Below, one piece after another: positions 38,028 to 53,083 of a stretch of DNA of 64,000 nucleotides. The notes below the pieces were generated by a model that was given only the letters and a program-made list of their open reading frames with translations, had not been told where the DNA came from and did no database searches. Numbering within the stretch: the first letter of the stretch is position 1; every line of letters starts with the position of its first letter. Both the position numbers and the translations under genes were made by a program. The stretch covers positions 1-64,000 of the forward strand of contig JALIBN010000003.1 of the NCBI GenBank assembly GCA_030576275.1. Direction: 5' to 3'. This stretch comes from Pseudomonadota bacterium (lineage in GTDB: Bacteria > Pseudomonadota > Gammaproteobacteria > Nitrosococcales > Methylophagaceae).

Positions 38028-40379
38028 TTAGTTTGCTAAATCTTGCCATGTAGAAACAACTGTATCAGGATTCAATGAAATACTTGTAATTCCTCTCGCT
38101 AATAACCATTTCGCCAAGTCAGGATGATCTGATGGGCCTTGGCCACAAATACCAACATATTTACCCGCATTTTTACAGGCTGTAATCGCCATATCCAACA
38201 TAGCTAAAACGGCAGGATCGCGTTCATCAAATGAACTCGCAACCAGTGATGAGTCACGATCTAATCCTAAAGTCAGCTGAGTCATGTCATTTGATCCAAT
38301 CGAGAAACCATCAAAATATTCTAAGAACGCAGATGCCAATACTGCATTAGAAGGTAACTCGCACATCATAATGATACGGAGTCCATTCTTACCACGCTCA
38401 AGACCATTTTCTTTCATGATCTCAATAACAGCGGCCGCTTCTGCCGTTGTCCGTACGAACGGAATCATTAGTTCAACATTGGTAAAGCCCATGTCATCAC
38501 GAACCCGTTTCATTGCTTTACATTCAAGTTCAAAACATTCTCTAAAATCATCTGAGATGTAACGAGCAGCGCCCCTAAAACCAATCATTGGATTTTCTTC
38601 ATGAGGTTCAAAATCAGCGCCACCGATTAGATTGGCATATTCATTTGATTTAAAGTCAGATAGACGAACAATTACTTTTTTAGGACTAAAAGAAGCGGCA
38701 ATTGTTGACACACCTTCCACGATTCGGCTGACATAAAACTCTACGGGATCACCATAAGCAGTGGTTCTTTCATAAATAACTTTTTTTACATCATCAGCCA
38801 TTTTATCCGCATTGATTAACGCTTTAGGATGAATACCAACCATGTTATTAATGATGAACTCTAAACGAGCTAAACCAACACCATCATTGGGTAACTGAGC
38901 AAATGAAAATGCGCGATCTGGATTACCAACATTCATCATGATTTTCACAGGAATTTCTGGCATTTTATTCAGTTGACGTATGTTATAGTCAAAGTCTAAT
39001 AAGCCTTCGTAGATATGACCTTCATCGCCTTCTGAACATGAAACGGTGACTTCAGAGCCATCAACGACTAACTCTGTAGCATCGCCACAACCCACAACTG
39101 CTGGCACACCAAGTTCGCGTGCAATAATTGCAGCATGACAAGTACGGCCACCACGGTTAGTGATAATAGCTGACGCTTTTTTCATGATTGGTTCCCAATC
39201 AGGATCGGTCATATCCGTGAGCAAAACATCGCCCTCTTCAAATTGATCCATTTGATCGAGGCTATTAAATAATCTAACACGACCTTTACCAATTTTTTTA
39301 CCTATAGAACGCCCAACAGCTAATATTTTGCTACGTTCTTTTAGAGTATATTCTTCAATGACATTTTCTTGTTGGCTTTGCACAGTCTCAGGGCGTGCTT
39401 GAACGATGTAGATTCGGTTATCAATACCATCTTTTGCCCACTCAACATCCATAGGTCGCTTGTAATGTTCTTCAATGGTGACAACCATTTTTGCCAACGA
39501 TTCAACTTCATCATCAGTCAAACAAAATAACACTCTTTGTTCTGGGTCAACATCAACCGTTTTGACTGGATTCGCTTCGCCAGAATAAATCATCTGGATT
39601 GCTTTCTGCCCTAACGTACGTCGTAATACAGATGGACGATCTGCAGTCAAAGTTTGTTTATGCACATAGAATTCATCTGGATTAACAGCACCTTGAACCA
39701 CCATTTCACCAAGACCATAACTACCAGTGATAAATACAACATCTCGGAAACCACTTTCGGTATCAAGACTAAACGCGACACCTGCGCTGGCAATATCAGA
39801 GCGCACCATTTTTTGGATGCCAGCAGATAATGCGACTTCATTATGATCAAAACCTTGATGTTCACGATACGAAATTGCTCGATCATTGAATAAAGAGGCA
39901 AATACTTCGCGAATCGATTGTTTGATATTGGCCAAGCCAGAGACATTCAAAAATGTTTCTTGTTGTCCAGCAAAAGAAGCATCAGGTAAATCTTCGGCTG
40001 TTGCAGATGAACGTACCGCCCAGGTTGCCTCGTGACCATATTCTTTTTCTAATTGACCGTAAGCTTCGTCGATTGCTTTTTCCATTTTGGCAGGGAATGG
40101 CACCTCGTTAATCCAGCGACGAATATCACTACCTGTAGCTTGCAATGCAGCGATATCTGTAATATCTAACTGATGTAAACGTTCAGCAATTCTATCTTTC
40201 AATCCGTCTTGAACCAGAAACTCTCGATATGCGTCAGCAGTCGTTGCAAAACCACCAGGAACTGACACACCTAACGGCGCCAGATTCTGTAGCATTTCAC
40301 CTAAAGAAGCATTTTTGCCACCAACTCTGGAGACATCATCCATGCTCAATTGGTCTAACTCAACTACATACTCAATCAT
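38028..40379 (-). CDS. ppsA: Phosphoenolpyruvate synthase
   Basis: [76 protein letters not shown]. Confidence 0.96.
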
Positions 40380-40429
40380 TATTTAAGTCCTCGTTCATCA
40401 ATTTATTAATATATTTAATTCTAAACTAG

Positions 40430-41293
40430 TTAGTCATCATTTTCTGTTAGCCCAAACCGCATTGCCTGAACCACATCACTAGCAATTTCTTCAATAGATG
40501 TATCGGTAGTTTCAAATACCGGAATTTTAGCATGCTCAAACATGGCTTCTGAAATTTTAATTTCGCGTTCACAAACTTTAAGTGAGGAGTATTCACTATT
40601 AGGTCGACGAGCTCTACGTATTTTACTTAAAGGTACAACTTTTATCGTCAGCGCCACAAGTTTATGTTTATGTTTAAGTAAGAAATCAGGCAACACATTT
40701 TTGTCTAAGTCCTCTTCAGTCAATGGATAATTACTCACTTTGAGTGAAAAGTTCATAGCCAAATATAGGCTGGTAGGTGTTTTACCACTTCGTGACACAC
40801 CCACTAAAATCACATCAGCTTCGTCATATTGATCATAACGTACACCATCATCATGCGATAAGGAATAATCAATAGCATCAAGCCGTTTCTGATAACTTAG
40901 ATTGCCAGAAATGCCACTATTTGCTTGAAATTTTCCTGGGACATGTGAGGAGGCTTCACCAAAAGTTTGCTCTAATGGTTCTAAAAAGGCATTAAATAGA
41001 TTAATGATACAAGCATCGGTACTTTTAAGTATACGTTGTCCATTTTCATCAACCAATGTGCTAAAAACAATGGGTTGCTTTCCTGACGTTCTATATGCGC
41101 TCTTAATCTTATTGCTAGCAATAGTCGCCTTTTCCCTAGTATCGATAAAAGATAAGGTTAAAATTTGATAACGTTGATTAGGAAATTGAGCTAATAAAGT
41201 TTTGCCGTAATGTGCAGCACTGAGGCCTGTACGGTCAGATACAAAAAATATAGTACGTAATATTTCGTCTTCATTCAAATCTGAATTAGTCAC
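40430..41293 (-). CDS. ppsR: PEP synthase regulatory protein (bifunctional kinase/pyrophosphorylase, PSRP)
   Basis: FFVSDRTGLSAAHYGKTLLAQFP, DVILVGVSRSGKTPTSLYLA; adjacent to ppsA. Confidence 0.94.
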   Translation of the reverse strand: MTNSDLNEDEILRTIFFVSDRTGLSAAHYGKTLLAQFPNQRYQILTLSFIDTREKATIASNKIKSAYRTSGKQPIVFSTLVDENGQRILKSTDACIINLFNAFLEPLEQTFGEASSHVPGKFQANSGISGNLSYQKRLDAIDYSLSHDDGVRYDQYDEADVILVGVSRSGKTPTSLYLAMNFSLKVSNYPLTEEDLDKNVLPDFLLKHKHKLVALTIKVVPLSKIRRARRPNSEYSSLKVCEREIKISEAMFEHAKIPVFETTDTSIEEIASDVVQAMRFGLTENDD

Positions 41294-41401: not shown

Positions 41402-43039
41402 TCAGGATATTCCAGATCGTACGGTTGCGATATCGGGACTGACTTCTCGCCTTAATATTTTGCCATTTTTTGTTCTTGGAAAATCCTTAGTTAAATAGAC
41501 AACTTTTGGCGCTTTATAAACTGCAAGGTGCCTCTTACCAAAGGCCAATAACTCATCGGGTGTGACATTCATTCCGTCTTGAAGTACCACATATGCAACG
41601 ACTAAGTTTTTATCTTTTTCGATCTCTTCGCCTATTGCGGCACAATCTGCAATTGCTGGGTGAGATTTAAAGACACGCTCAATTTCATAGGGTGACACGC
41701 GGAATCCAAAACTTTTAATAATGTCGTCTTTTCTACCTAAAAACCAAATATAACCATCTTCATCGTACCTTGCAAAATCACCGGTAAGAAACCATCCGTC
41801 ATGTTTTAACTTTGCTGTTTCTTCAGGCATATTCCAATATTCAATAAACAAACCTGGGTCAGTATCAGGGACACAAATCATACCTTCTTGGCCAACTTCA
41901 ACTGATAGCAAGGAGTCTGGATCTAATAATTGAATATCGTGGCCAGGCTGAGGAAAGCCTGCTGATCCGGGACGAATAGGACGTGATTTTGTTTCACAAA
42001 GATAATATGAAAACTCCGACATACCAACAGCTTCATAAATACTGATATCAAAACGCTCTTGCCACAATTGTAAAACTTCATCGGATAGATGTTCACCAGC
42101 ACTCATACAATGCCTTAAGCTAGACACATCATTTTTTCTGTAAGCTGTTTTTTGAATAATTTGTCGGTAAATAGTGGGCACACCCACAAATATTGTTGCT
42201 TTATGTTTAGCGATTAAACGTGGCCAAGTATTAGCATCATTTTTACCCTCATGAACAATGACTGTTTTACCTAAATATAAGGGATCCATTAATCCAGAAC
42301 CTAATACGTAGGTCCAGTTAAACTTGCCAGAATGCATGATGCGGTCTTGGCTATCTTCAGCAAAATCGAACCAATACTGTGAGGCTGGAGTTCGCCCAAT
42401 CAATGCTCGGTGGGCATGTAAAACCCCTTTCGGATAACCTGTTGTACCCGAGGTATAGACTAAATATGCAGGATCATCAGCCTGTGTATTAGTGGCGGGT
42501 TGCCAGTCGGTTATTGATGCTAGACACTTGCTAAAATCTTTCACTATGACGTCATCATCAGCCTCGACTACATCGCCTGGACCTGATAACAAAACCAGTT
42601 TTAAATCAGGACAATGAGAAATATTCGGCAATAATTTTACCCACATTTCCTTGTCTATAACTAACACCTTAGCTTGTGAATCTTTAGCTAAGTAAAGTAC
42701 CTCTTCTACTGTTAATAAAGTAGAAGTTGGAACCGAAATAGCACCTAATTTCATTGCACCAAGAAAGGCAATTGGGTAGTCTAAACAATTAGGTAAACGT
42801 ATTAAAACGCGTTCACCAAATACAACATCAAGGTCACGTAACAATTGTGCAAATTGACTGGTTCGCTTTGATAATTCAGAAAAACTAATTTGATCTGTAC
42901 CTAACAGATCATCTTCAACAATCATTGCAGTTGTGTTTTCGATTTTTGTTCCAATATGGCGATCAGAACAGGCGACGCCGATATTAAAGTGACTTGGTAC
43001 GTCCCAAACCCAAGGGGTAAACGGTATTAAATTACTCAT
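41402..43039 (-). CDS. AMP-forming acyl-CoA synthetase/ligase (substrate unknown)
   Basis: LVYTSGTTGYPKGVLHAHRA, EAVGMSEFSYY, GWFLTGDFARYDEDGYIWFLGRKDDIIKSFGFRVSPYEIE, RTKNGKILRR. Confidence 0.92.
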   Translation of the reverse strand: MSNLIPFTPWVWDVPSHFNIGVACSDRHIGTKIENTTAMIVEDDLLGTDQISFSELSKRTSQFAQLLRDLDVVFGERVLIRLPNCLDYPIAFLGAMKLGAISVPTSTLLTVEEVLYLAKDSQAKVLVIDKEMWVKLLPNISHCPDLKLVLLSGPGDVVEADDDVIVKDFSKCLASITDWQPATNTQADDPAYLVYTSGTTGYPKGVLHAHRALIGRTPASQYWFDFAEDSQDRIMHSGKFNWTYVLGSGLMDPLYLGKTVIVHEGKNDANTWPRLIAKHKATIFVGVPTIYRQIIQKTAYRKNDVSSLRHCMSAGEHLSDEVLQLWQERFDISIYEAVGMSEFSYYLCETKSRPIRPGSAGFPQPGHDIQLLDPDSLLSVEVGQEGMICVPDTDPGLFIEYWNMPEETAKLKHDGWFLTGDFARYDEDGYIWFLGRKDDIIKSFGFRVSPYEIERVFKSHPAIADCAAIGEEIEKDKNLVVAYVVLQDGMNVTPDELLAFGKRHLAVYKAPKVVYLTKDFPRTKNGKILRREVSPDIATVRSGIS

Positions 43040-44193
43040 AATATTGCTCCATATGGCCAGTTCTCACGAACTACTTGGGCCGGCATTAACTGCATAACCT
43101 CCATAGCAAAACTTCGATCGTCATCATTTAAAGATTGTAAAGCATTGGCACGAAGTAACGTTTGTAATGCCTTACCGAACATGGGCGGGTCAAGCATTTC
43201 ACCGTCAAACTTTATCGCCCCACCCAATAGGGCATCTGCATCAATGGCAGCTTTCAGAATACTAATCTTTTGAGCAATTTCTGTTGGTGACGGTGTATAG
43301 GCAACTTTACATAAATGTATATGGCTAGGATGAATAACTTGCTTGCCGGTGAGTCCCATTGCGGTCTCTTCACAGGCATGCTTATAAACAACACGTGACT
43401 CCTCTTCTCCATGAAGATCTAACCATCGTCTAACATCATTGGGTTCTATAAATTTTTCTGGCATGCTTGATGAACCTATTAAGGTTTCAACACCGCCGAT
43501 AACTCCCTTACCAGCAATTCGCGCTTCAAACATGATTTGGTATAAGAAGTATTTAAGCTCTTCTGTCCAATGTTCAGGGGTAATGTGAATACCCATAGCT
43601 TTAGAAAAGTCGTGGATCCCAAATACAACATGTTTAACGGTGGAATATTGCATCAAGTCAGGGGCGATTTTGAGCGATTTAGGGTGCTCAATAATCGGTT
43701 GAATGGTTATTTTATTGTTCATACCGACAAGCAAATTTGAGAGATCTCTTACCTCTGCCGCACCATAAGCTTCACCCGCTTTCGATAACATTACAACATC
43801 AATACAGTCAGCCATATCACTAACCAATTGCATATCAAGTTCATATTCACGAGTACGAAATGGATTAACTCTTATTGCAATCGTCACTTTTTTATTATAT
43901 TGACGAAGTTCAGCTAATTCTTGACGCAATAAAGTTCGACTCATTTCTTTTTGACGACAACCATCTTCTAAATCAAAAATTAAAGTATGAGCTTGTGTCT
44001 CATAGGCATGTCTTTTCAGACGTAAAGCTGCGGCCTCTATGTCTTCATATATACCTTGTTGAGGTGAATATTTGACCGGAGGATAATAGAGCTGAATCCC
44101 AGGCCAATGGTCGCCTAATACACTTGAGTTAAACACTCGGCAAAAATCGACATCGGCATATGGTTCAGCGTAGGAATTGTTTCTATTTTCCAT
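43036..44193 (-). CDS. HpcH/HpaI aldolase/citrate lyase family protein (CitE-like A)
   Basis: HTLIFDLEDGCRQKEMSR, VAIRVNPFRT, QPIIEHPKSL, GKQVIHPSHI. Start at MENRNNS (good RBS). Confidence 0.87.
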   Translation of the reverse strand: MENRNNSYAEPYADVDFCRVFNSSVLGDHWPGIQLYYPPVKYSPQQGIYEDIEAAALRLKRHAYETQAHTLIFDLEDGCRQKEMSRTLLRQELAELRQYNKKVTIAIRVNPFRTREYELDMQLVSDMADCIDVVMLSKAGEAYGAAEVRDLSNLLVGMNNKITIQPIIEHPKSLKIAPDLMQYSTVKHVVFGIHDFSKAMGIHITPEHWTEELKYFLYQIMFEARIAGKGVIGGVETLIGSSSMPEKFIEPNDVRRWLDLHGEEESRVVYKHACEETAMGLTGKQVIHPSHIHLCKVAYTPSPTEIAQKISILKAAIDADALLGGAIKFDGEMLDPPMFGKALQTLLRANALQSLNDDDRSFAMEVMQLMPAQVVRENWPYGAIL

Positions 44194-44282
44194 ATTTTTA
44201 CCCTCTTTATCTCTATGTTGGTCATAGCTATTTTTCAATCTGCAGAACCTGAATAATTACGAAACCTTGTTACTACAGTTGT

Positions 44283-45497
44283 CTAGTCGTCACGCGCGGC
44301 TTGTTCAACAGCGCTCGATACTCTGTTCAATAATCTTGGATCAAAAGGTTTAGGAATAATGTATGATTTCCCAAAACTCAATTCATCAAGATTGTAAGCG
44401 GCCAAAACATCTTCAGGGATAGGCTCACGCGCCAACTTAGCTAAAGCATGAACCGCCGCAATTTGCATTTTTTGAGTAATTTGAGTTGCCTGCGCATCCA
44501 AAGCACCACGAAATAGATAAGGAAAACATAATGCATTATTCACTTGGTTTGGAAAGTCAGAACGTCCTGTTGCCATAATTAAATCGTCACGAATAGCATG
44601 TGCAAGCTCTGGGAGTATTTCTGGATCTGGATTTGCCAAAGCGAAAACTACAGGATTTGTAGCCATAGACTTTAATAATTCAGCATCTAAGGTATTAGCA
44701 GCAGAAACCCCAATAAATACATCAGCACCTATCATCGCATCGGCAAGCGTTCGCTTCGGGGTATCTCTTACTAGGTCTTCCACCTCTTGATGAATATCAG
44801 TTCGTTCATCATGTATTACACCTTTGCGATTAACCATAGTGATATTGGTTGCCCCCATGGCACGTAACATTCTTGCCGTTGCCACACCCGCGGCACCAGC
44901 GCCAAGAAAGACGATCTCTACGACTGTAAGATCTTTATTTTGTAATTCAAGTGCATTTAGCAAGGCCGCACAAATAATTACTGCGGTGCCATGTTGATCA
45001 TCGTGAAATACAGGAATATTTAATCGTTCACGCAGTTCGCGTTCTATTCTAAAGCAATGAGGCGCAGCAATATCTTCTAGGTTTATTCCGCCAAATGTCG
45101 GTGAAATATTAACCACGGTTTCAATAAAGCTTTCAATTGAAGGTGCGGTCACTTCAATATCAAATACATCAATATTGGCAAACTGTTTAAATAATACTGC
45201 TTTACCTTCCATCACCGGTTTGCTAGCCAATGACCCCACATTACCTAAACCTAACACGGCCGTTCCATCGGTTATAACAGCCACTAAATTACCTTTATTG
45301 GTATATTTATACGCATTACGAGGATCAGCTTCGATCTCTTTAACTGGCACAGCGACACCTGGTGTATATGCAAGAGAAAGGTCATCCGCGGTAACACAAG
45401 GTTTTGTGGATTCAACCGACAATTTTCCAGGTCGGGGAAACTGATGATAATTGAGTGCCCTTGTTTTCAAATCTTGATACTGTTCTGGACTATTCAC
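44283..45497 (-). CDS. NAD(P)-dependent malic enzyme (short, no PTA domain)
   Basis: LSLAYTPGVAVPVKEI, TDGTAVLGLGNVG, FHDDQHGTAVI, VFLGAGAAGVATARML, ATGRSDFPNQVNN. Confidence 0.93.
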   Translation of the reverse strand: MNSPEQYQDLKTRALNYHQFPRPGKLSVESTKPCVTADDLSLAYTPGVAVPVKEIEADPRNAYKYTNKGNLVAVITDGTAVLGLGNVGSLASKPVMEGKAVLFKQFANIDVFDIEVTAPSIESFIETVVNISPTFGGINLEDIAAPHCFRIERELRERLNIPVFHDDQHGTAVIICAALLNALELQNKDLTVVEIVFLGAGAAGVATARMLRAMGATNITMVNRKGVIHDERTDIHQEVEDLVRDTPKRTLADAMIGADVFIGVSAANTLDAELLKSMATNPVVFALANPDPEILPELAHAIRDDLIMATGRSDFPNQVNNALCFPYLFRGALDAQATQITQKMQIAAVHALAKLAREPIPEDVLAAYNLDELSFGKSYIIPKPFDPRLLNRVSSAVEQAARDD

Positions 45498-45500
45498 AAT

Positions 45501-46235
45501 TTACTCCAAAGAATTCATATAATGTTGTTCATCAGTAACACACAAGCCTAAACGCCATTCCATTGGTTTATCTCCATAGGTATAAGCAACTCGTTCGATA
45601 CTAAGCAAAGGAAATCCAGGCTCTATATTAAGAAGCTCTGCTTGTTGTTTTGTGGCCATAACTGCGGATAATTTTTCTTCTGCCCTTACCATTGGTACGC
45701 CATACAAAGTTTCATACATACTATAAAGTGAACCGTTATTCTCTTTGATTTTGGTCGCATTCAGTCCCTTGAATGATTTGGCTTGGACGATGATGTAGTC
45801 AAGAATGACTGGCCGTTGCGAAAAGGTAAGTAATCGTTTGATCTCAATAATAGCTGTGCCAATTTTCAAACCAGTTAACTTTGCAATTTCTGCATTTACT
45901 TTTATACGGTTACATTCAAGTAATTCGTTTTCGAGTAGTTCTTTACTGCCATCGGCAGACGTTAATCTTAAAAAACGTAACTTGCTGTTTTGTTCTTTAT
46001 GGGTTGATACAAAGGTACCTTTGCCTTGGCGACGTACAACAATATTTTCTTTCGCCAACGCGTCAATCGCTTTTCTCACCGTACCTTGACTAACCCCATA
46101 GCGTGCGGCTAAGTCCATTTCACTAGGAATACTTTCTCCAGGTTTCCACTCACCAGCAATAAGACTATCGGTCAGCACAGACTTAATTTGTTCATAAAGA
46201 GGTCTAAACACCAACGTGCTATTCATGTTGCTCAT
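45501..46235 (-). CDS. GntR/HutC-type transcriptional regulator
   Basis: N-terminal wHTH (WKPGESIPSEMDLAARYGVSQGTVRKAIDALAKENIVVRRQGKGTFVS) plus UTRA-like effector domain; divergent from the CitE-MaoC-prp genes. Confidence 0.92.
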   Translation of the reverse strand: MSNMNSTLVFRPLYEQIKSVLTDSLIAGEWKPGESIPSEMDLAARYGVSQGTVRKAIDALAKENIVVRRQGKGTFVSTHKEQNSKLRFLRLTSADGSKELLENELLECNRIKVNAEIAKLTGLKIGTAIIEIKRLLTFSQRPVILDYIIVQAKSFKGLNATKIKENNGSLYSMYETLYGVPMVRAEEKLSAVMATKQQAELLNIEPGFPLLSIERVAYTYGDKPMEWRLGLCVTDEQHYMNSLE

Positions 46236-46285
46236 ACTCTTTCCTTGGTTTTTTACTTTAGTAACCATCTTATCTCATCACCACA

Positions 46286-46299
46286 GTCTTATATAAGAC
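46286..46299. promoter_or_regulatory. Putative GntR operator 1 (GTCTTATATAAGAC)
   Basis: Perfect 14-bp palindrome upstream of gntR; overlaps a possible gntR -10 region on the minus strand. Confidence 0.7.
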
Positions 46300-46438
46300 A
46301 CTATAAAAACACATCTTCAAAAGAAACACTAAAACACCTGGTATATGGTGATAGCTTCTAAATATCACTTATCTCTCTCTACAAAATGACTTCAATAGTA
46401 ATTTATACCAGTTCAATTGACATGTCTAGTGTTTTATA

Positions 46439-46450
46439 TCTTATATAAGA
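46439..46450. promoter_or_regulatory. Putative GntR operator 2 (TCTTATATAAGA)
   Basis: Second exact copy of the 12-bp palindrome core, about 13 bp upstream of the plus-strand -35 box. Confidence 0.7.
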
Positions 46451-46463
46451 CATAAGATAAAGA

Positions 46464-46493
46464 TTGACACAATAAATCAGACTGGCATAGAAT
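46464..46493 (+). promoter_or_regulatory. Putative sigma-70 promoter for the CitE-MaoC-CitE-prpBCD genes
   Basis: TTGACA - 18 bp - TAGAAT, about 50 bp upstream of the ATG at 46544. Confidence 0.6.
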
Positions 46494-46543
46494 GAATTCA
46501 TCAATCAATTGCCTAATAGATCATCGTTATAGAAAGGTGCCTT

Positions 46544-47425
46544 ATGAACGACTATTTTCGACCACGCCGCTCCATGCTTTATATACCTGGCTGCAATCAA
46601 CACTATCTTGAAAAAGCGCTGACTATGAATGTTGATTCAGTTATTTTAGATTTAGGAGCCCCAATCTTGCTCTCTGCAAAGGAGACTTCTCGTAAAAATG
46701 TGGTTGAAGCACTAAAAAAAGGAGGGCTAGCTCCTCGCGAGGTAGTGGTAAGAGTCAACGACCTTGATTCAAAATGGGGATATGACGATGTAAATGCCAT
46801 AGCAAATCTTAGTGCCGATGCCATTCTATTTTCAAATATCGAAAATCACGACGATGTAATGAAAGCACTCAAAGCATTGGATGATGCCGGTAATTCTGAT
46901 ATCCCGATTATGGTAATGATCGAGAGCCCACTGGCTGTACTTCACGCCGAAGAAATTGCAAAATCTTCCGATCGTATTGCTTGTATGATTATGGCGACAT
47001 CGGACCTTATTTCAGATTTGCATGCACGTCCGACCTATGAACGTACTGCAATCTTAGCTAGCTTATCACTTGTTGTGCTTGCTGCTCGTGCTTATGGTAG
47101 AGCTGTTGTTGATGGCATTCACAGTGATCTTAAAGATATGCAAGCGTTTGAATACGCGTGTCGTATTGGTCGAGACATGGGCTTTGATGGAAAGTCACTC
47201 GTTCATCCCTTCCAATTACCTTATGCAAATGAAGCATACACACCAAAACCAGCAGAAGTTGAATCTGCTAAAGAAATTATTGCGGCATTGAGCGCAGCAA
47301 ACGCAGCAGGAAGAGGCACGGTGTTAGTGAACGGACGATTGGTAGAGCATCACCATGTTACGGCAGCAAAACGCTTCTTAGAACTCAGTGAGATGATTAA
47401 TAAAATGGGTATCGATAATGACTAA
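46544..47425 (+). CDS. CitE-like lyase family protein, motif-degenerate (CitE-like B)
   Basis: RPRRSMLYIPGCNQHYLEKAL...VILDLGAPILLSAKETSR...MIESPLAVLHAEEIA...FDGKSLVHPFQ; CitE fold with altered signature positions. Confidence 0.85.
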   Translation: MNDYFRPRRSMLYIPGCNQHYLEKALTMNVDSVILDLGAPILLSAKETSRKNVVEALKKGGLAPREVVVRVNDLDSKWGYDDVNAIANLSADAILFSNIENHDDVMKALKALDDAGNSDIPIMVMIESPLAVLHAEEIAKSSDRIACMIMATSDLISDLHARPTYERTAILASLSLVVLAARAYGRAVVDGIHSDLKDMQAFEYACRIGRDMGFDGKSLVHPFQLPYANEAYTPKPAEVESAKEIIAALSAANAAGRGTVLVNGRLVEHHHVTAAKRFLELSEMINKMGIDND

Positions 47426-48512
47426 ATTAACTACTAACCACAACCGATATTTCGAAGATTTCGAACTCGGCGAAACAATATTACATGCAACTCCTCGCAC
47501 CATTACTGAAGGAGATGCATCGCTCTATATTGGCTTAACGGGTTCTAGGCATATTCTTCATTGTGCACAGCCTGTTGCTCATTCACTTGGTTACGAAGAC
47601 AAAACCATTGATGACCTGTTGGCCTTTCATATTGCCTTTGGCAAAACGGTACCTGACATATCGGTGAATGCAGTCGCCAATCTTGGTTATGCTGAAATCA
47701 CATTCGATCATCCAATTTATGCTGGCGATACGCTTACAACAAGCTCAACCGTTATTGGCGTTAAAGAAAACTCCACTAAACGTAATGGTATAGTCTATGT
47801 CCGATCAACTGCGTTAAATCAAAATCATAAACAAGTCTTATCTTGGGTACGTTGGGTAATGATACATAAACGCGATTTTGATGCGCCAGCACCTAAAACG
47901 GTTATTCCAGAATTATCACAATTTGTAACGGCTGAAAATTTGCCTGTATTTAGTCATTTAGATGCCAAATATTTTGATATCACAACCACAGGTTCAGCCA
48001 AGTTGTGGGACGACTATGTAGCAGGTGAACGTATTAATCATCCTGCAGGTATGACAGTTGATGATAGCGACCACACACTGGCCACTAAACTTTACCAGAA
48101 CAATGCCAAACTTCATTTCGATGACTTAATGATGAAATCGACCAGCTTTGGTCGAAGATTGATGTATGGCGGACATGTTATTTCAATTTGTCGTGCACTC
48201 AGTTACGAAGGTCTTGAAAATGCGATCTCAATTGCCGCTATCAATTCCGGTACACACAGCAATCCAAGTTTTGGTGGCGACACCTTCTATTGTTGGACTG
48301 AAGTCCTAGAAAAGTGGACATTACCAAAACGTAACGATATAGGTGCATTGCGCCTACGTATGGTTGGCATAAAAAATCAAACTGCTGACAGTCTAGCGAG
48401 CACCAAAATCATTGTAGATAACAAAAAACAATGTCATCCCAATGTAGTGCTCGACCTTGACTACACGGTACTGATACCTCGCAGATCAAATCAAGATAAG
48501 GAATTACTATGA
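47418..48512 (+). CDS. MaoC family dehydratase, mesaconyl-CoA hydratase-like
   Basis: RYFEDFELGETILHATPRTITEGDASLYIGLTGSRHILHCAQPVAHSLGY; double-hotdog length; flanked by CitE-like genes; 8-bp overlap with the previous gene. Confidence 0.85.
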   Translation: MTKLTTNHNRYFEDFELGETILHATPRTITEGDASLYIGLTGSRHILHCAQPVAHSLGYEDKTIDDLLAFHIAFGKTVPDISVNAVANLGYAEITFDHPIYAGDTLTTSSTVIGVKENSTKRNGIVYVRSTALNQNHKQVLSWVRWVMIHKRDFDAPAPKTVIPELSQFVTAENLPVFSHLDAKYFDITTTGSAKLWDDYVAGERINHPAGMTVDDSDHTLATKLYQNNAKLHFDDLMMKSTSFGRRLMYGGHVISICRALSYEGLENAISIAAINSGTHSNPSFGGDTFYCWTEVLEKWTLPKRNDIGALRLRMVGIKNQTADSLASTKIIVDNKKQCHPNVVLDLDYTVLIPRRSNQDKELL

Positions 48513-49513
48513 CAAATTTAACTCATCCTAGCGATGCACTATTTGATGGCGAACGCTCATTTCCGATAATTCCTAGTTGTGAACACTTTGCGGGAAGCGA
48601 AAAACTGATCCTGAAGGCACTTTCATTACAAGATTCACTGGGTCCTATTTTCGATATCACCTGTGATTGTGAAGATGGTGCTGCCGCAGGCACGGAACGT
48701 GAACATGCCGCAATGATTGTACGGATCCTGACCTCAGAAGCCAATAAGCACAAAATGGCAGGAACCCGGATCCATGACTTTAGTCACAGTGCTTGGAGAC
48801 AAGATGTCGATATATTGGTCGGTGGCGCCGGTAATATACTCAGCTATATCACCATACCTAAAGCGACTAAAGTAGCACAAGTTTCCGAAATGATTGGCTA
48901 TATTCAATATGTTGCTAAACAAAATGGCATCACTAGAACAATCCCAATACATGTCCTTATAGAAACACATGGTGCCTTACATGATGCCTATGAGATCGCG
49001 GGATTACCTTGGATGCAGGTACTAGACTTTGGTTTAATGGATTTCGTTAGTGCACATAATGGAGCTATTCCAGCGAGTGCCATGCGAAGTCCAGGACAAT
49101 TTGAACATAAGTTATTAGCAAGAGCTAAAGCCGAAGTGGTCTCTGCGGCTCTTGCCAATGGCGTAGTGCCAGCACATAACGTAACCTTGGACTTAAAAAA
49201 TACCGAGGTTACTTATGCAGATGCCGCACAGGCTCGCAATGACTTTGGGTTTTTAAGAATGTGGAGCATTTACCCAACCCAAATTTCTGCAATTGTCGAT
49301 GCTATGAAACCGAATTACAGCGAAGTGATTGATGCTTGTAATATCCTATTGGCCGCACAACAAGCGGATTGGGGACCACTACAATATGAAGGTGAGCTCC
49401 ATGACCGAGCAACCTATCGTTATTTCTGGCAATTATTACAACAAGCTCAGAAAACAGGTATTGAATTACCAGAACAAGCTCAAAAAGCTTTTTTCTCTGG
49501 GGATCAATCATGA
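48509..49513 (+). CDS. HpcH/HpaI aldolase/citrate lyase family protein (CitE-like C)
   Basis: [59 protein letters not shown] overlaps on both sides. Confidence 0.86.
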
Positions 49514-50397
49514 GCAAGATACTATCTGCTGGAGCAAAATTTAGACTAGCTGTATTAGATGAACAACCTTTGCAAGTCATGGGCGCGATCAATGCCTATC
49601 ATGCTCGCCTTGCCACTCAGGTTGGTTACAAAGCCTTATATATTTCTGGCGGTGGTGTCGCCGCTGGTTCATTAGGCATACCTGACCTAGGAATCACCAC
49701 ACTTGATGATGTGTTAACGGATGTGCAGCGGATAACTAATGTTACCGATCTGCCCGTATTAGTTGATATTGACACTGGATTTGGCGGTGCTTTTAATATT
49801 GCCCGAACTATCAAATCAATGATTAAAGCAGGTGCCGCAGCCGTTCATATCGAAGACCAAGTTCAAGAAAAACGTTGTGGCCACAGACCGAATAAAGCCA
49901 TCGTCAGCCAATCTGAAATGGTGGATCGCATTAAAGCCGCCGTAGATGCTAGAACCGATGATGATTTTGTCATTATGGCTCGAACTGATGCACTTGCAGT
50001 AGAAGGTTTACAGTCAGCAATTGATCGCGCCAGTGCTTGTGTAGAAGCTGGTGCTGACATGATATTTCCTGAAGCAATAACTGATTTAGCTATGTATCGT
50101 CAGTTTGCACAGGCAGTTAAGGTTCCCGTGCTTGCCAATATCACTGAATTTGGCACTACTCCGCTCTTTACGGTTGAACAATTAGCGCAATATGAGGTGG
50201 GCTTAGTGCTATATCCCTTAACGGCTTTCCGGGCGATGAATCAGGCCGCGTTAAAAGTTTATCAATCCGTTCGTGAACATGGCACACAACAACATGTCAT
50301 CGAACTGATGCAATCGCGTAACGAGCTCTATGACTATCTCGATTACCACAGCTATGAACAAAAATTAGATCAATTATTTTCTGCTGAAAAAAAGTAA
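49510..50397 (+). CDS. prpB: 2-methylisocitrate lyase
   Basis: [79 protein letters not shown]. Confidence 0.95.
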
Positions 50398-50445
50398 CGG
50401 GGCAAGGACGTATTGCCTAATTGATTTGCAAGAGAGGATAAGACA

Positions 50446-51585
50446 ATGACTGAAGTTAAAAAGAAAAAAGGCGTGACCCTCGCCGGTATTGCTGCCGGCA
50501 CAACAGCGGTTTGTACCGTTGGTCATAGCGGTAATGACTTACATTACCGTGGTTATGACATATTAGAACTAGCATCCAAAGCCACGTTTGAAGAAGTAGC
50601 TCATTTACTAATTTATGGTGAGCTTCCTACTCAGGATCAATTGACTAATTATCATAAAAAATTAAAACAGCTTCGTAGTCTGCCTGTTGCTCTAAAAACC
50701 ATCCTCGAAAATTTACCATCAAATGCACATCCTATGGATGTAATGCGCACAGCCTGTTCAGCACTGGGTACGATTGAACTAGAGGATCAAAGCCATTCAA
50801 TTGAAGGTGCTCAACATATTGCAGATCGTTTGATTGCTTGTTTTGGTTCTGTTTTATTGTATTGGTATCACTTTAGTCAAAATGGCAAACGCATTGAATT
50901 AGAAACTGATGATGATTCAATCGCAGCCCATTTCTTACATCTACTTCATGGTGAGGCACCTTCAGCGTTACATATTGAGGCGATGAATGAATCACTAGTG
51001 TTATATGCCGAACATGAATTCAACGCTTCTACATTTTCAGCGCGTGTCATCGCCGGCACCTTATCTGATATTTACTCTGCCATCACCGGCGCAATCGGTG
51101 CTTTAAGTGGACCAAAACATGGTGGTGCAAATGAAGCTGCCATGGAAATAATTCAACGCTACGCATCACCAGATGATGCAGAAAAAGACATTATGCAGCG
51201 CATCGCCAACAAAGAAATAATTATTGGTTTTGGTCATCCTGTTTATACTATTTCTGATCCTCGTAATGTTGCTATTAAAGAGGTTTCTCGCCGCTTATGT
51301 GAAGCGGGTGGCAATATTAACTTATTCAATATTTCAGAAAGAATTGAACAAGTTATGTGGCGCGAGAAAAAGATGTTTCCTAATCTTGATTGGTACAGCG
51401 CTTCCAGTTACCACATGATGGGAATACCGACTAGTTTCTTCACGCCAATCTTTGTTATTTCGCGCATTACTGGATGGGCGGCTCACATCATTGAACAGCG
51501 TATTGATAATAAGATTATTAGGCCTAATGCAGATTATATAGGCCCTGAAGAAAGACCATTTATTCATTTAAAAGCACGTTCTTAA
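50446..51585 (+). CDS. prpC: 2-methylcitrate synthase
   Basis: [67 protein letters not shown]. Confidence 0.94.
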
Positions 51586-51622
51586 GCTTTATTAGTCACT
51601 CATTTAGTTACAAGGATTCACT

Positions 51623-53083
51623 ATGTCATCCCATATTCCTAAGGTTTCTCATGCGCCTGATCAAGTACTCGTAGACATTGCAGATTATGTTCACGATTAC
51701 TTAATTACCAGCCCTGAAGCTTTAGATACTGCTCGCTATTGTTTGATGGATACACTTGGTTGCGGTCTAGAAGCACTCTCTTATCCTGCCTGTACAAAGT
51801 TACTGGGACCCGTTGTTACTGGTACTATTGTTCCTAACGGCAGTAAAGTACCTGGCACATCATTTCAGCTTGATCCAATTCTTGCAGCTTTTAATATTGG
51901 CGCAATGGTTCGTTGGCTAGATTTTAATGATACTTGGCTAGCTGCTGAATGGGGCCATCCATCAGATAATCTAGGCGGAATTCTTGCTGTCAGTGATTGG
52001 ATTTCTCGTACTCGCGAACAAGCCGGTAAAAAACCAATTTCAATGCGCGAAGTACTTGTTGCCATGATTAAAGCGCATGAAATTCAAGGCGTTTTAGCAT
52101 TAGAAAATAGCTTTAATCGTGTTGGCTTAGATCATGTTGTGTTGGTGAAAGTTGCCTCAACAGCCGTCGTAACGGGCCTACTTGGTGGTACTAAAGAAGA
52201 TATCATCAATGCAGTATCAAATGCTTGGATAGATGGACAAAGTTTGCGTACTTATCGCCATAGCCCAAATACTGGTTCTCGTAAATCATGGGCTGCCGGT
52301 GATGCTACAAGTCGTGCGGTACGCATTGCATTAATGACCATGAAAGGTGAGATGGGCTACCCATCAGCACTGACTGCAAAAACATGGGGATTTTATGACG
52401 TGCTATTTAAGGGCCAGCCGTTTAAATTTCAACGTGACTACGGGAGTTATGTAATGGAAAATGTACTTTTTAAAATTTCGTTTCCGGCCGAATTTCATGC
52501 TCAAACGGCTGTTGAAAGTGCAATTTTGCTTCACAATGAAATTGGTTCGCGTATCCAGACATTAGATGATATTGCTCTAATCGACAAAATAGAAATTACG
52601 ACTCATGAATCTGCTCTGCGAATTATCGATAAACAAGGACCATTAACAAATCCTGCTGATCGAGATCACTGTATCCAATACATGGCTGCCATCGGGCTTT
52701 TAAAAGGACAACTTACTGCCGCGGATTATGAAGATGATATTGCTGCCGATCCTAGGATTGATGCATTAAGAGATAAAATACACTGCGTTGAAAATGAATC
52801 ATATACTGCAGATTATTTAAACCCTGATAAACGATCGATTGCCAATGCATTACAAGTCATTTTTACTGATGGAACGAGTTCTGAAAACATTGCTGTTGAA
52901 TATCCAATTGGTCACAGACGTCGCCGTAAAGAAGGTATTCCTGAACTCGTTAAAAAATTCAAAATCAATTTAGCACGTCGTTTTCCAGCGAAGCAACAAC
53001 AACAAATTTTGGATGTATGTATGAATGAAGCACAGCTGTGTGCAATGCCTGCTCATGAGTTTGTAGATCAATTTGTGATTTAG
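51623..53083 (+). CDS. prpD: 2-methylcitrate dehydratase (MmgE/PrpD family)
   Basis: [74 protein letters not shown]. Confidence 0.94.

Follow-up and report, generated by a model that had tools for sequence, protein, structure and literature searches.

The window is a 64,000-nucleotide stretch of contig JALIBN010000003.1 from a gammaproteobacterium of the Methylophaga family. It holds a gntR gene that is divided by a short intergenic region from a divergent operon beginning with a citE-like lyase. The genes around this region are as follows:

41402-45497, minus strand: genes downstream of gntR, namely a short malic enzyme (44283-45497), a third citE-like gene (43036-44238) and an acyl-CoA synthetase (41402-43039), in the same order in relatives
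45501-46268, minus strand: gntR, a GntR/HutC-subfamily regulator assigned to SdhR, with a GntR HTH (Pfam PF00392, 2.4e-21) and a UTRA domain (PF07702, 1.7e-30)
46544-47425, plus strand: citE-like lyase (cyl) at the head of the divergent operon (HpcH_HpaI, 4.8e-40; synteny)
47418-48512, plus strand: maoC, mesaconyl-CoA hydratase-like (PF19315, 1.1e-17; RipB/Ich, 1.5e-33, below its cut-off)
48509-49513, plus strand: second citE-like lyase (HpcH_HpaI, 2.4e-12)
49510-53083, plus strand: methylcitrate cycle genes prpB (49510-50397), prpC (50446-51585) and prpD (51623-53083), NCBIfam equivalogs above their cut-offs

The mechanical start of gntR, at 46268, probably lies too far upstream. Homologous proteins start at residues 7-21, and the ATG at 46235 (codon 12), which is preceded by a Shine-Dalgarno-like AAGGAA, is the probable start. 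The gntR/citE intergenic region spans about 280-310 bp and contains two exact copies of the palindrome TCTTATATAAGA, at 46287-46298 and 46439-46450, 152 bp apart. The left copy extends by 1 bp on each side to GTCTTATATAAGAC (46286-46299). The first-pass annotation had described these palindromes, their spacing and the left extension correctly in every detail except that the copies were said to flank the intergenic region, when both lie inside it. The regulatory features placed in this region are predicted as follows:

46286-46299, no strand: GTCTTATATAAGAC, the left and secondary operator, exact and core-only, within the leader of gntR
46400-46428, minus strand: likely main promoter of gntR, read as TAGACA-N17-TAAATT or as TGG-TATAAA and lying back to back with that of citE, from conserved columns
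46430-46459, no strand: right operator in its extended form, TGTTTTATA-TCTTATATAAGA-CATAAGATA, including further ATAARA boxes on either side, from column conservation in 70 distinct sequences
46439-46450, no strand: right (principal) operator core TCTTATATAAGA, an exact match
46464-46493, plus strand: citE operon promoter TTGACA-N18-TAGAAT (TTGACA 46464-46469, TAGAAT 46488-46493), from sequence and conserved geometry

Genome-wide scans were made with exact and mismatch patterns, not with a weight matrix. Across the whole genome (2,368,516 bases) TCTTATATAAGA occurs exactly twice, as the gntR/citE pair. Four more places differ from it by one mismatch, three of them within open reading frames and one upstream of a lipoprotein-like frame; these were considered as further operators and set aside, given their location in coding DNA or before an unrelated gene. 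At two mismatches no enrichment is seen in the whole genome (99 places for the motif against 177 for its reversed control). The 48 family genomes that do not carry the regulator, about 110 Mb together, contain six exact copies, or about 0.05 per Mb. Five of these can be placed, in or beside unrelated genes, and the sixth lies on a barely annotated contig. At this rate, two copies within one intergenic region would arise by chance with a probability of the order of 1e-10. Because exact copies are so rare in the regulator-less genomes, the pair in the gntR/citE region is not a product of chance.

A search of named genomes with the regulator returned 80 loci at 58-88% identity, mainly from Methylophaga, Methylotenera, Methylophilus and Gallionellaceae, with mostly the same synteny. 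The core stands beside gntR in exact form at 74 of these loci, with one mismatch at three and with two at one; the remaining two are cut by contig ends, so that 77 of the 78 readable loci lie within one mismatch. The motif is thus conserved at orthologous clusters, which the first-pass annotation had proposed to check. Core-bearing loci span Methylophaga, Methylophilaceae and Gallionellaceae, and thus both beta- and gammaproteobacteria. Conservation continues beyond the core as TGTTTTATA-TCTTATATAAGA-CATAAGATA, then 4 bp, then TTGACA. In the window the right site carries the full core and one full outer box, and the box on the other side is weaker. Four Methylotenera-type loci (L047, L056, L059 and L076) have a duplicated operator, in which two adjoining cores lie 16 bp apart in place of one.

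The right site adjoins both predicted promoters. The TTGACA-N18-TAGAAT boxes reported next to the right copy were recovered, and in 66 of 74 loci TTGACA starts 13 bp past the core. The citE -10 element is near-consensus in most loci and reads TATAAT in 47 of 71 scored. On the opposite side, the columns of the gntR promoter are kept across loci: TAGAC[A/T] lies at a distance of 10 bp from the core, and 17 bp farther on comes a -10 resembling TATAAA. The sequence thus places the predicted extended operator (46430-46459) between the -35 boxes of two back-to-back promoters, centred at about -55 for citE and about -52 for gntR, upstream of both -35 boxes. That a single AT-rich operator serves as a shared control element for the two promoters is half of a joint proposal, completed below by the transfer of the regulator between lineages, on which we are evenly divided.

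The two sites are not equivalent. The first-pass annotation placed one of two identical copies by each divergent promoter; the existence of two sites stands, and their equality does not, as the right site has ATAAGA boxes, is conserved across families and adjoins both -35 boxes, while the left is core-only and confined to the clusters of gammaproteobacteria. About 50 bp separate the left copy from the likely gntR start downstream of it at 46235, and the best reading of this copy is a secondary autoregulatory site, weaker than the right one. Among the nine Methylophagaceae genomes that bear SdhR, its equivalent is exact in seven (the window genome included), differs by one mismatch in G075 and is missing in G002. 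The proposed overlap of the left copy with a gntR -10 element is weak, since the conserved gntR promoter adjoins the right copy. A reading of TTGAAG-N18-TTATAT at the left copy can be made, yet it is absent from the promoter-scan output and a better conserved gntR promoter is found elsewhere.

The motif and its regulator match a known pair. Suvorova et al. 2015 (PMC4494728), citing Suvorova et al. 2012 (J Bacteriol), give the palindrome TCTTATGTCTTATATAAGACATAAGA for SdhR, a regulator of the HutC subfamily of GntR proteins, and TCTTATGTCTTATATAAGACATAAGA is the symmetrical form of the predicted extended right operator of the window. HutC regulators have the consensus NyGTMTAKACNy, in which 4 nt separate GT from AC, and SdhR is named as an exception to it; extra half-sites are described near GntR operators in general (PMC4494728). 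The window palindrome GTCTTATATAAGAC has the form GT-N10-AC and does not follow the canonical GT-N4-AC arrangement. The appeal of the first-pass annotation to a GT-N-TATA-N-AC consensus for HutC regulators accordingly falls away, as the real consensus differs and SdhR is the stated exception (PMC4494728). The window regulator has the GntR HTH and UTRA domains, its right site fits the operator TCTTATGTCTTATATAAGACATAAGA, and orthologous regulators stand at the homologous divergent clusters. Its designation as an ortholog of the SdhR of Suvorova 2012 rests on the motif and on cluster identity. The window shares with SdhR the common core, the additional boxes and the regulator subfamily; it differs in its gammaproteobacterial host, in having two operators instead of one, and in lacking both an sdh within the cluster and an operator at the unlinked sdh. 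DasR and YvoA (NagR), both repressors, are among the nearest full-length relatives of solved structure, with a similarity of E about 1e-20 to 1e-22 across most of the protein. They share the GntR wHTH plus UTRA fold, whereas their operators and ligands differ and SdhR departs from the GT-N4-AC rule. The regulator is thus one already predicted by comparative genomics, and the switch is of a known kind. A full-text literature search found no experimental study of SdhR.

The gene set itself has been described in Methylophilaceae, as a methylcitric acid cycle cluster comprising prpCBD, cyl1, maoC, cyl2, gntR, mdh, sdhABCD, cyl3, prpE, fum and can (PMC4109929). The Methylotenera counterpart is mmol_0748-0766, whose physiological role is described as unknown and whose gntR (mmol_0754) is among the most over-expressed genes of the cluster in situ, rising with it (PMC3728764). 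The window has the same genes in the same divergent layout around gntR, without sdhABCD. In the window (38028-41293) and in Methylophaga, unlike in the Methylophilaceae cluster, genes for a PEP synthase and its regulatory protein come after the cluster. In the Methylotenera locus examined, sdhCDAB sits between the malic enzyme and the third citE, and other Methylophilaceae show similar spacing; the name SdhR fits because the Methylophilaceae gntR operon holds sdhCDAB. Proteins of the cluster (window 41402-53083, L033-L112) are about 60-97% identical between gammaproteobacterial Methylophaga relatives and Methylophilaceae, and their occurrence in the former is patchy. Novimethylophilus has gntR and the citE operon on separate contigs, with one site each.

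The distribution of a further operator copy links SdhR to sdh in Methylophaga. SdhR is present in 9 of 57 family genomes, and all nine carry the motif at the cluster. An extra exact core occurs in all six SdhR-bearing Methylophaga genomes next to metG (L144-L149), just downstream of the sdh -10 element (TAGATT), at about +6 to +17 of the promoter. None of the 15 Methylophaga genomes without SdhR has this sdh-promoter operator (at least four mismatches), and the TTGAAA-N17-TAGATT promoter is still shared. The contrast of 6/6 with 0/15 gives a Fisher p of about 2e-5, uncorrected for kinship among genomes that are related and may reflect a single ancestral gain. G025 has SdhR and no sdh operator. 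The window genome's own sdh (L156, about 2440-2690) keeps the promoter boxes and lacks the operator, the best match having four mismatches; this unlinked sdh is of the b558 type (TIGR02046, TIGR01811) and is not orthologous to Methylophilaceae sdhCDAB. Control of sdh by SdhR is thus indicated in Methylophaga, and through the operon in Methylophilaceae, and no sign of it was found in the window genome, which bears on regulon content and not on the protein or operator family.

The Methylophaga-family regulators form one clade nested beside two Methylophilaceae sequences, in a tree with open forks that leaves direction and timing unsettled. Because of this nesting and the patchy presence in 9 of 57 genomes, transfer from betaproteobacterial methylotrophs followed by rewiring of sdh is suggested, and the protein identities together with the patchy occurrence likewise suggest horizontal transfer of the cluster. 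SdhR would then be a transferable regulatory module that, once the cluster had moved, lost its linked sdhCDAB and, in Methylophaga, captured the recipient's own unrelated-type sdhCAB by evolution of a 12-bp operator just past the -10 of that promoter; our even division covers this proposal and the shared control element together. The sdh operator that tracks the regulator in Methylophaga would be a natural case of a transferred regulator capturing the non-orthologous replacement of its former target. The specialist interest of the locus lies in this rewiring and in the shared divergent-promoter geometry, the operator pair itself being ordinary.

Both palindromes are very probably operators of SdhR, encoded by the adjoining gntR. 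The prediction that they serve the adjacent GntR/HutC regulator for gntR and the citE operon is supported by a motif that is rare, conserved at orthologous clusters and tracks the regulator. The explanation that best accounts for the locus as a whole, and which we consider highly plausible, is an autoregulated SdhR repressor with a strong operator between two promoters and a core-only second site in the gntR leader. An SdhR dimer would bind the central operator, perhaps with extra subunits at the outer ATAAGA boxes. Ligand-free SdhR would occlude the AT-rich upstream contact region and so block both promoters (citE-maoC-citE-prpBCD and gntR-malE-citE-acs), with the leader site tightening autorepression. 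In Methylophaga, SdhR would also control the unlinked sdh through the site just past its -10 element.

Readings that give the palindromes another origin or mode of action fare less well. The core contains TATATAA and its surroundings are AT-rich, as would be expected of chance sequence or promoter -10 debris. The lack of a third copy in 2.37 Mb, as the genome-wide motif scan proposed in the first-pass annotation showed, and the conservation in 70 distinct sequences leave that origin a negligible probability, and we count it as already refuted. Operators of another regulator, such as a separate propionate or TCA-cycle regulator, would not be expected to follow the gntR gene from genome to genome or to match the published motif of a HutC-subfamily SdhR, and are very improbable. 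The occurrence of two identical cores in a single divergent region invites the idea of a DNA loop, also raised in the first-pass annotation, by which dimers bound at 46287 and 46439 would work together. The distance between the copies is 152 bp in the window, 161-164 bp in Methylophaga and 271 bp in G025, equal to 14.5, 15.3-15.6 and 25.8 helical turns. A phased loop is unsupported because this distance varies with no constant helical phase; moreover, the close relative G002 and almost all Methylophilaceae lack the left site, and most clusters have a single site. Looping is accordingly improbable.

The sign of regulation is a closer question. SdhR could be an activator, or dual, recruiting RNA polymerase at citE from upstream of the -35 box and repressing from the leader and Methylophaga sdh sites. 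An operator centre near -55 and a fixed distance to the -35 box would suit this arrangement, as would the in situ co-expression of gntR and its cluster in Methylotenera (PMC3728764). A gntR that rises with its cluster is also what would be expected of a de-repressed autoregulated repressor. Against activation, the citE -35 and -10 boxes are already near-consensus in most loci, the sdh site lies downstream of the -10 element and the best-known solved relatives are repressors; we consider it rather unlikely. Repression by SdhR is likely, because the position past the sdh -10 is typical of repressors, a near-consensus citE promoter should need no activator, and the best-known full-length relatives DasR and YvoA repress.

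With SdhR as a repressor, a pathway metabolite, such as a C5- or propionyl-derived acid or CoA ester, or 2-methylcitrate, may release it from the DNA. Release would jointly induce acyl-CoA activation, the CitE/MaoC chemistry, the methylcitrate cycle and malic enzyme. The genes may form one route, in which an acid is converted to its CoA ester, MaoC and CitE carry out hydration and cleavage, propionyl-CoA passes through the methylcitrate cycle to pyruvate and succinate, and succinate is converted to malate and then pyruvate. Since the genes are chemically coherent as a single route, the effector is likely an intermediate of it, with low confidence as to which, and any particular candidate is doubtful. 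In methanol-eating bacteria the regulator almost certainly controls its own gene together with a block of genes for carbon metabolism. With the operators mapped precisely, the regulator, the promoters and the co-regulated genes can be named, and with them what to assay, namely the effector and the induction conditions.

One locus (L094, JALRDC010000154.1) has the methylotroph cluster on a contig labelled Flavobacteriaceae, which is probably mis-binned. Loci from Gallionellaceae and relatives (L053, L061, L068, L073, L087, L096, L107, L108, L110 and L111) have the regulator, the operator, three citE-like genes, maoC and the acyl-CoA synthetase. In the Gallionellaceae-type iron-oxidiser loci the fetched cluster has no prpBCD and mostly no malic enzyme. 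Because these loci do without prpBCD, the CitE/MaoC module, and not the methylcitrate cycle, appears to be the constant partner of SdhR.
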